From the NCBI GenBank assembly GCA_022446825.1, contig JAKVBY010000060.1, positions 13,268 to 46,714 on the forward strand: DNA of 33,447 nucleotides, in the 5' to 3' direction. Every line of letters begins with the position of its first letter. The stretch's first letter is position 1. Shown here piece by piece: positions 7,111-9,769 of this stretch. A model generated the notes under the pieces. It had not been told where the DNA came from and made no database searches. It saw only the letters and a program-made list of their open reading frames with translations. Both the position numbers and the translations under genes were made by a program. Origin of the DNA: Pirellulaceae bacterium (GTDB lineage: Bacteria; Planctomycetota; Planctomycetia; Pirellulales; Pirellulaceae).

Positions 7111-8436
7111 TCAACGTGGTGGCGAAAACACCCAGAAAAATTCGCCCCGATCTCCACCCTGCAGTTGTGCCTGTTCGTCTAGGAATTCAACTTCGGCCTG
7201 CAATTCCTCGGCTGACCAGCCCAGGCAAGACCTCATTTTGAGAGATCGCATGTCATAATCCATGTCATAGCTCTCCGGAGCTCGCACCATCAGAGCCGAC
7301 GGCAGAACCACGCAATGATAGACACGCAGCGCACACGGCAATTCTCGAGCTCGGTGGAAACTTTTGCGGAAGTTTTCGGGTCCATCACCAGGCAAACCGA
7401 GAATGATCTCCAAAGCAACGCTCGAAATGTCTGTCAGTAGTTGCAAGTGGTTGTCAAACTGTTGTTCATCGTAAGAACGTTCGACATGTGCCAAAACTTC
7501 GTTGTCGAAGGACTGCAATCCCATACCGACCAGCGGACGACCAATGTCCCTTAGAAAGTCGAGATGAATCGGTTGTATCTTAGCTGGATATACTTCGCAG
7601 ATAAAATGACGATCTTCAAATACCTGAGTTTCGCGCGCAGCAATATGAAGATTCTTGAACGCGATTTGATTCAAGTTGAGCCCGGCATCGACCAACAACG
7701 CACCCTGGACCTCGTGCCGTCGCATTCCCTCAAACTCACGGCATAAATCTTCTACACTTCGTACTCGCTTGGGCGACTCCATCGTGCCCCACTCACAAAA
7801 CGAACAAGTAAAAGGACAGCCGCGGTAAGTTTGTAACACGCCCAACCCCCCCGGCGACGCCAAGCCCATTTGATACGGTGACGCAAGCTCATTGAGGTCT
7901 CCTAAAGGGCGAGCCGGCGACTCAAACCAATCGTCATCCATGGGCAGGATGACTCCGGCAATCTTACTCAGCGCGTCAAAAGTCCGCTCCCGGTTCAACA
8001 CAATATCAAGAAACGTCAGCTCCCCTTCCGTGCTCACCAAGGCATCGACGTATTGACGCATCGAAAGGTAAGGGGGCAGGTTCATCATGCTTGGGCGCGC
8101 GGATGGCCCGCCGAGTACAATTAGTCGACTGGGATCAGCCAGTTTCAAATGCTGCGCTACTTCCAAGAAAAACGGAAACGACCAGAGATAGCAAGAAAAA
8201 CCAATCACATCTGGATCAAACCACAACAGATCGCTGACCACTTGATTCAAATCCGGTTCAACCAAGTCATAGATCTGCAATTCCAAGTCAGGCAACTCAG
8301 CAGCTCGCAAGGTCGCTTCGACCATCCGCATTCCGTGATTGGAAATCAGCTGTGGTGATGCCGGGTCCTGCGGTGCATATTGGGCCAGCAAAGCAACGCG
8401 ACGTCCGTCCCGACGCTGGCTTGTAGTCGTGATCAT
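7111..8436 (-). CDS. Cobalamin-type radical SAM protein, second of a tandem pair
   Basis: A 441-residue protein with the layout of the B12-binding radical SAM class. An N-terminal Rossmann-like domain (about 12-145, with DVIGFSCYLWS and VLGGPSARP) is followed by a radical SAM barrel carrying the [4Fe-4S] motif C207-PFT-C211-SF-C214 and then EWG. Barrel signatures follow: LLVDAGLNLN (about 247-256), a GMGLQS strand and EIILGLPGD. The tail is aromatic (FFWVF). The classical DxHxxG cobalamin-ligand motif is absent, which is common in this class. The start ATG at 8436 has AGGAG twelve bases upstream, a long spacing. It lies 19 bases after its paralogue and ends 145 bases before the cytochrome gene. 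These enzymes do methylations or other radical chemistry, but no substrate is indicated here. Confidence 0.88.
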   Translation of the reverse strand: MITTTSQRRDGRRVALLAQYAPQDPASPQLISNHGMRMVEATLRAAELPDLELQIYDLVEPDLNQVVSDLLWFDPDVIGFSCYLWSFPFFLEVAQHLKLADPSRLIVLGGPSARPSMMNLPPYLSMRQYVDALVSTEGELTFLDIVLNRERTFDALSKIAGVILPMDDDWFESPARPLGDLNELASPYQMGLASPGGLGVLQTYRGCPFTCSFCEWGTMESPKRVRSVEDLCREFEGMRRHEVQGALLVDAGLNLNQIAFKNLHIAARETQVFEDRHFICEVYPAKIQPIHLDFLRDIGRPLVGMGLQSFDNEVLAHVERSYDEQQFDNHLQLLTDISSVALEIILGLPGDGPENFRKSFHRARELPCALRVYHCVVLPSALMVRAPESYDMDYDMRSLKMRSCLGWSAEELQAEVEFLDEQAQLQGGDRGEFFWVFSPPR

Positions 8437-8455
8437 AGCCGGTACATGCTCCTGG

Positions 8456-9769
8456 TCAGATCCGGGGGAAATACCACCAATAGTTTCCAGCACGGCCACC
8501 GCTACCAATAGCCTCCGATGTCAGACGATCACGCATTTGCAACAAGTCGTCGTGACTCCAACCGCGGCAAGACGTCATTTCAAGTGTCAGCGGGTCGTAC
8601 GCAATCTCCCATTCGGGTTGGGAACGCGACATTAAGGCGTCGGGCAACACCAGGCAATGGTAAGCGCGAACCGCAACTGGTAATGAGCGGGCATAGGACA
8701 AGGTCTTCAAGAACCCCTCCGGGGAATCAAGCGGCAAGCCAAAAATAATCTGAACTTCTCCTTCTGAAACACTCGCCAATTGTTCGATGGAAGACTCAAA
8801 TTTCGTTTGATTAAATGGTCTCTGGTGAGCCTGCAGGACTTCCGGATCGAGAGATTGCAGCCCGATTCCCAGATAAGACGGCCCAATGTTGGATAAAAAG
8901 TCCAAATGCTCTTGTCGTACGTGCGACGGATAAATCTCACACCAGAAATTTGCCGATTTGAGAAAAGACACATTGCGTTCTGCCTCGCAGAGATTCTGAA
9001 ACCCACGCGCGTTCAAATTGAGCCCTGCGTCGACCAGGAATACCGCAGGCACATTCTGTTCCTGGTATGCTTCTAGTTCGCGAGTCAGGTACTCCGCAGA
9101 AAAAACAGCGCCATTCTTGTCACTGGCACCCCATTCGCAAAACGTGCACGAAAGTGGACAGCCTCGAAAAGTTTCCAAGTACGACACCGCGTCAGGCTTC
9201 ATGATCTGCGACGCATAGGGGGATGGAATCTCGTCGAGCATCAACAGCGATGGACGAGGGTCCGTTTGTACCCAGCCATTGGATGTGGGAATATGCAGTC
9301 CAGGGATCGACTCGAGTGTTCGGTTGTCAGACAGAACGCATTTGGCAATTTCACAAAATATCATTTCACCTTCTCTAGAGACCAGCCCGTCCATATACGA
9401 CTCGGAATGCTGGTACAGCGGCAGGTCGAATAAAACAGTGCGTGCTGACGGTCCGCCGAAAATGATCGTGCATTGCGGTCGAGCCTGCTTGATTTGACGG
9501 GCAACTTCCACCAGTGTCGGCGTAGACCAAACATAGATCGAGATTCCAATCAAATTCGGATTGGTCGCCAGAATCGCATCCGTATAGGCAGCGACATCTG
9601 CTGATTCCCGATCAATCATCGTCACGGCAGCATCCTGCAACTCAGGGTCAGCCATAACAGCCGCCTGAATTCGACGAATCCCGTAACTCGGCAACTCGAA
9701 ATCGCCAAGCTCACCCCCGTCCACCGGTGGTGTCATGCAAACAAGTGCAATATTTTTTGATGTAGCCAA
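8456..9769 (-). CDS. Cobalamin-type radical SAM protein, first of a tandem pair
   Basis: A 437-residue paralogue of the next gene downstream with the same architecture. The N-terminal B12-binding-like domain (about 6-140) has LIGISIYVWS and IFGGPSAR. The radical SAM domain follows, with C204-PLS-C208-TF-C211 then EWG, LVDAGLNLN (about 245-253), GIGLQSLD and IIFGLPLD. The C-terminal end is GNYWWYF. The start is a TTG at 9769: an in-frame TAA lies nine bases before it, and AAGAG with a six-base gap precedes the TTG. The next internal ATG (9736) has no ribosome site and would cut the first strand. The two genes form an operon, and the similarity points to duplication followed by divergence. The product is not predictable; methylation of a natural product, peptide or lipid is possible. 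Confidence 0.88.
   Translation of the reverse strand: MATSKNIALVCMTPPVDGGELGDFELPSYGIRRIQAAVMADPELQDAAVTMIDRESADVAAYTDAILATNPNLIGISIYVWSTPTLVEVARQIKQARPQCTIIFGGPSARTVLFDLPLYQHSESYMDGLVSREGEMIFCEIAKCVLSDNRTLESIPGLHIPTSNGWVQTDPRPSLLMLDEIPSPYASQIMKPDAVSYLETFRGCPLSCTFCEWGASDKNGAVFSAEYLTRELEAYQEQNVPAVFLVDAGLNLNARGFQNLCEAERNVSFLKSANFWCEIYPSHVRQEHLDFLSNIGPSYLGIGLQSLDPEVLQAHQRPFNQTKFESSIEQLASVSEGEVQIIFGLPLDSPEGFLKTLSYARSLPVAVRAYHCLVLPDALMSRSQPEWEIAYDPLTLEMTSCRGWSHDDLLQMRDRLTSEAIGSGGRAGNYWWYFPRI

Follow-up and report, generated by a model that had tools for sequence, protein, structure and literature searches.

Paired, truncated B12-binding radical SAM proteins as candidate C-methyltransferases of a dispersed planctomycete pathway to a small aromatic compound

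Two adjacent genes of a Pirellulaceae bacterium, here called A and B, encode B12-binding radical SAM proteins that, on balance, probably act as TokK/CysS-type C-methyltransferases in a dispersed pathway to a small aromatic compound, most likely one derived from indole or tryptophan. They lie within the window, by which we mean the whole stretch of 33,447 nucleotides that was analysed, and no gene beside them in it belongs to the pathway. The pair and its landmarks are as follows.

Gene A: 8456-9769, minus strand; TTG start, 437 residues, B12-binding radical SAM protein.
Gene B: 7111-8436, minus strand; ATG start, 441 residues, B12-binding radical SAM protein, paralogue of A.
A/B intergenic gap: 8437-8455, minus strand; 19 bases, which fits one transcript.
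A, radical SAM cluster motif C204-x3-C208-x2-C211-E-W213-G: 9128-9160, minus strand; W213 aligned to TokK W215.
A, W81 in the YVWS motif: 9527-9529, minus strand; aligned to TokK W76 (cobalamin lower axial face).
B, radical SAM cluster motif C207-x3-C211-x2-C214-E-W216-G: 7786-7818, minus strand; placed by alignment to A and the 15-sequence comparison.
B, W85 in the YLWS motif: 8182-8184, minus strand; equivalent of TokK W76.

A first-pass annotation had described two neighbouring genes for proteins of 441 and 437 residues, 19 bases apart, and we reproduced these coordinates and found every landmark it had listed (GGPSAR, CxxxCxxCEWG, VDAGLNLN, G[IM]GLQS, I[FL]GLP and an aromatic tail), most of them with little or no variation among 15 A and B sequences. 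Its view of the genes as a paralogous operon pair agrees with the short gap and with the 40% identity of A and B over 412 residues (BLASTP, E = 7e-107), so that paralogy rather than chance resemblance accounts for the likeness. In Pfam, Radical_SAM scores above its cut-off in both proteins, and B12-binding scores 40.6 bits in B, above the cut-off of 32.1, and 30.6 bits in A, slightly below it (E = 3e-7). With a B12-binding domain followed by a CxxxCxxC radical SAM core, both proteins satisfy the class B cobalamin-dependent radical SAM architecture, in agreement with the class first assigned to them. In the one close pair of loci measured (L022 versus L010), A and B are under strong purifying selection, with dN 0.056 and dS 1.56 for A (dN/dS about 0.04) and dN 0.069 and dS 1.19 for B (dN/dS about 0.06).

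The pathway of the pair had been called unknown. This holds for the window, where no neighbouring gene belongs to the pathway, but not for the relatives, where the orthologues belong to a conserved biosynthetic cluster, most of which is also present on a separate contig (C113) of the window's own genome. Besides A and B, the cluster comprises the following genes.

R: MoaA-like radical SAM enzyme of about 302 residues with a conserved Cys-rich C-terminus.
H1: tryptophan-halogenase family, active-looking.
H2: degenerate halogenase copy.
W: WelO5-family Fe/2OG enzyme (PF22814).
M: SAM methyltransferase.
O: SAM methyltransferase of the O-methyltransferase family.
K: P-loop kinase.
U1 and U2: no Pfam match.

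The order R-H1-A-B-W-M-K-H2-O-U1-U2 is found in L009, L010 and genome G364, and partial forms in L008, L011 and L012. Genome G780, from the window's own family, carries ten genes together in the order R-U1-U2-O-W-M-A-B-K-H1. Among the window's genes, a PSD1/DUF1501 pair, a 3-keto-disaccharide hydrolase and an esterase were considered as partners and rejected, as they are not beside A/B in relatives. Just upstream of R, an outer-membrane-protein-like gene is conserved in family f21 (L010:5032-6138, PF05150; L066:7781-8818; L068:12355-13398; L075:1381-2454) and may encode an exporter or receptor for the product.

The structure predicted for U1 (pLDDT 84.9, pTM 0.83) satisfies the strand and helix order of a ten-stranded alpha-beta-beta-alpha barrel, and its best 50 fold matches in the PDB are all ABBA/DMATS prenyltransferases, headed by 5-dimethylallyltryptophan synthase (5-DMATS, E = 4e-9). 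For U2 the model is of low quality (mean pLDDT 58.8), and its best fold matches are the cyanobacterial indole prenyltransferases FamD1, AmbP3 and AmbP1 (E = 2e-5, probability 1.00). The models thus place U1, and less firmly U2, among proteins that fold like indole/aromatic ABBA prenyltransferases. Invariant K-x-Y, R and E residues in U1 hint at a possible prenyl-diphosphate site; sequence profiles of U1 and U2 found no prenyltransferase in the PDB, and viral models searched with U1 gave weak matches only. Sequence homology between U1 and U2 was not supported (hhalign probability 0.3%), although both model as ABBA folds. In the window's genome the two are one fused gene on C113 (L031:16944-18731), and G630 and G003 encode a 599-residue protein whose N-terminal part is R and whose C-terminal part can be aligned to U1 (L072:9874-11673; L073:8198-9997). 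These U1-U2 and R-U1 gene fusions suggest that R, U1 and U2 may form a physical complex.

H1 looks like an active flavin-dependent halogenase by its motifs: the equivalent of PrnA K79, the E of EPLES and WxWxIP are present in 12 of 12 copies, and the GxGxxG flavin-binding motif is readable in 11 of the 12, the N-terminus of the other being cut by a contig end; the segment after GGG varies in L069 and L089. H2 (L010:13846-15417 and relatives) has mostly lost the flavin-binding, WxWxIP and catalytic E motifs, yet is kept in the cluster; it is probably not a halogenase and could be a non-catalytic partner. ABBA enzymes and flavin halogenases both accept phenols as well, and the former also peptides and the latter pyrroles, so that an indole substrate is not proven.

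WelO5 halogenases have HxG/A in place of HxD, leaving room for chloride. The best PDB match of W is a WelO5 G166D mutant (5iqu), and all 12 copies of W carry HxD (HCD or HVD) where WelO5 has HxG; the role of halogenase implied by its Pfam name was accordingly rejected on this motif, and W is predicted to be an Fe/2OG oxygenase. A second, distant WelO5-family protein of the window's genome (L033:3940-5085, on C110) is 22% identical to W and has relatives in G003, G630 and G780, with which it makes up an Fe/2OG family separate from W. The cluster resembles the hapalindole, ambiguine and welwitindolinone pathways in the ABBA folds of U1 and U2, whose fold matches include AmbP1, AmbP3 and FamD1, and in the WelO5-family protein W. 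It differs from them in that WelO5, with G166, is a halogenase and W has HxD, and no isonitrile synthase was seen in the planctomycete clusters. We know of no counterpart of R, H1 or A/B in those pathways.

SPASM maturases, C-methyltransferases of ribosomally made and modified peptides (RiPPs) and cyanobactin prenyltransferases act on precursor peptides, and the cluster could be read in the same way, with R, A, B, H1 and the ABBA proteins modifying a ribosomal precursor. R does resemble SPASM-type maturases, B12-radical SAM peptide C-methyltransferase families score on A and B, and the peptide prenyltransferases PagF, KgpF and LimF are among the fold matches of U1. A search of the gaps at 16 loci found no conserved small open reading frame, however, and yielded no candidate precursor; the genes are packed with small gaps or none, and the cluster has no conserved gene for a peptidase, a transporter or a recognition domain. 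We consider a peptide product unlikely, and return to A and B as enzymes acting on a small aromatic compound.

The first-pass annotation had included methyltransferases in the class, and it is to these that A and B are most closely related. The closest solved structure is TokK (E = 1e-24 for B, 7e-20 for A), followed by CysS (about 1e-15 to 1e-16 for the two), and the best NCBIfam model is that of the KedN5 C-methyltransferase (NF033712), with 97.8 bits for A and 86.1 for B against a cut-off of 700. In TokK, cobalamin has its lower axial face filled by W76 and is bridged to SAM by W215, the second residue beyond the last cysteine of the cluster motif (PMC9692996). TsrM, a tryptophan 2-C-methyltransferase (PDB 6wte) which methylates an sp2 carbon by a non-radical route, has R69 and E236 at these positions (PMC9692996). 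Counted along the alignments, W76 corresponds to W81 of A and W85 of B, and W215 to W213 of A and W216 of B; both positions are invariant in 15 of 15 A/B proteins. The CEWG signature, proposed earlier as a shared mark of the pair, is present in both but not private to them, as its W is TokK W215 and TokK itself has CDWG. With both tryptophans invariant where TsrM has R69 and E236, a TokK-like radical methylation of an sp3 carbon is expected, and our best guess from sequence is that A and B are radical C-methyltransferases of the TokK/CysS kind.

The likeness to TokK/ThnK, the carbapenem C6 methyltransferase (PDB 7kdx), extends over the B12-binding domain and the radical SAM core, including the W76/W215 equivalents and C-x3-C-x2-C-[DE]-W-G. 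TokK has 681 residues with a C-terminal domain, whereas A and B end about 55 residues past the core, near TokK residue 400, and lack the C-terminal part of about 290 residues; substrate binding must therefore differ from that of TokK. A and B are, in addition, a paired duplicate without carbapenem genes. CysS (PDB 9n1b) and KedN5 come next by sequence and are natural-product C-methyltransferases; the scores far below the KedN5 cut-off put A and B outside that family, in a separate subfamily. TsrM shares the B12-radical SAM class and probably a tryptophan-type substrate; apart from the R69/E236 pair, it differs in that A and B score only 27.6 and 19.7 bits with its model (TIGR04428, cut-off 500). 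Together, A and B constitute a new subfamily within a known enzyme class.

Missing the C-terminal domain of TokK, and joined in the cluster by at least two SAM methyltransferases, A and B might instead catalyse a ring formation or rearrangement on the same intermediate, in the manner of BchE or OxsB, rather than methyl transfer. Indeed, BchE, HpnJ and other B12-radical SAM families also score on the two proteins in NCBIfam. Against this, the best-scoring relatives (KedN5, PhpK, TokK and CysS) are all methyltransferases and both tryptophans are invariant, so that ring formation seems about as improbable as a peptide product, and methyl transfer remains the preferred activity.

The pair is conserved as a unit across planctomycetes. 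A scan of 84,980 species genomes, whose sensitivity is limited because its peptide patterns came from one sequence, found close relatives in planctomycete MAGs only, and together with family-wide searches it gave 14 genomes with A or B. Both genes are complete and adjacent in 10 of these, and in G638 B comes after A but only its start is present before the contig ends, making 11 of 14 paired; contig ends interrupt the pair in the other three (G462, G549 and G557). None of the 14 is a counter-example, and wherever both genes share a contig they are adjacent or overlapping. Orthologues in planctomycete genomes are 51-57% identical for A and 57-62% for B. In a tree with seven outgroups, A and B each form one side of a branch (support 84/91 for the A clade and 100/99 for the B clade), and these separate clades place the A/B duplication before the split of the two families. 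The distribution is patchy, with A/B in 9 of 170 genomes of family f21 and 5 of 241 of the window's own family. L013 of a marine Pirellulales MAG, a candidate 91% identical orthologue of A, was rejected: it is a remnant of 533 bp (L013:10008-10540, about 85% DNA identity) that contains in-frame stops and lies between unrelated sequences, which is evidence of pathway loss.

So strict a pairing, seen in every genome with an uncut pair, together with near-equal lengths and the lack of a C-terminal domain of its own in either protein, would also suit an obligate heterodimer of one catalytic subunit and a second that gives only structural or cofactor-loading support. All 15 of the proteins compared, however, keep the three cysteines, the tryptophan of the B12 pocket and that of CEW, which a non-catalytic partner would not need, and dN/dS is low in A and B alike. 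We find a division of this kind hard to credit, more so than ring formation, and favour two catalytic C-methyltransferases.

Of the 170 genomes of family f21, 10 have R, and all nine A/B genomes are among these 10; the co-occurrences are not independent events, since only two genera are involved. Three of the five A/B genomes of the window's own family have R; the search for R in the other two (G649 and G659), where clusters run into contig ends, gave no match, and both have O, W, M, U1 and U2 beside A/B, as well as H1 in G649. W is present in 13 of 13 A/B genomes checked. Three further genomes (G732, G630 and G003) have R, H1, O, U1 and U2 and lack A/B; searches for W gave no match in G732 and a weak paralogue only in G630 and G003. 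From this pattern, R, U1, U2, H1 and O seem to make up a core module, and W, M, A and B a module for tailoring. In G732, which is without W, A and B, a putative 2OG-Fe(II) oxygenase (PF13759, L069:7598-8242) lies beside the core module and might serve as a tailoring enzyme instead.

The window's genome carries H1, K, O, R, the U1-U2 fusion, W and M side by side on C113, at about 17.4-25.5 kb of 45.8 kb, and A/B on contig C111, at about 20.4-23.0 kb of 46.7 kb. Both places are away from contig ends, and the split is thus a true one, barring an assembly error. G550 has its set on four contigs: A/B on C50, W on C52, R and H1 on C72 and U2 on C39. This retention despite dispersal is the best evidence that the genes serve one shared pathway. 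That A/B have a role of their own, independent of the C113 cluster, is very improbable: the pair does stand apart from cluster genes in the window and in L007, but it was not found in any genome that lacks them, and in G550, where it is also alone, W, R with H1, and U2 persist on three other contigs.

For the preferred pathway, in which A and B methylate a small aromatic intermediate, we infer the substrate, the order of reactions, the sites of methylation and the type of reaction as follows. R, U1 and U2 would make and prenylate an aromatic core, H1 would halogenate the ring, and O, M, W and the A/B pair would decorate the halogenated core. Both A and B would generate a 5'-deoxyadenosyl radical by reducing SAM, abstract hydrogen from an sp3 carbon of the intermediate and then transfer the methyl group of methylcobalamin, either at separate positions or one methylation after the other. 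The product is probably a halogenated, prenylated and repeatedly methylated aromatic small molecule, indole-like in character.

We found no description of this gene combination among open-access papers; the SMIRC planctomycete MAG paper was set aside, its PKS product being unrelated. The cluster is easily overlooked, being without PKS or NRPS genes, and mining for one cluster would miss the pathway where it is split over contigs. With antiSMASH 3.0, Fuerstia marisgermanicae gave bacteriocin, terpene and ectoine matches only (PMC5177795); we infer, in part from its kinship with L010, that G364 is this strain.

Together, these observations give a pair of orphan enzymes a place in a concrete pathway that can be tested, and provide a functional lead for U1 and U2, families without a Pfam match. 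On one presumed scaffold, the route would bring together a halogenase, an Fe/2OG oxygenase and three radical SAM enzymes. We raise, tentatively and with some doubt, the idea that planctomycetes hold an indole-alkaloid-like pathway of a new class, in which a radical SAM enzyme is gene-fused to ABBA-like proteins and paired, truncated B12-radical SAM enzymes methylate a halogenated prenyl-indole, its modules possibly lying on different loci. If G364 is the cultured strain, the product can be sought directly.
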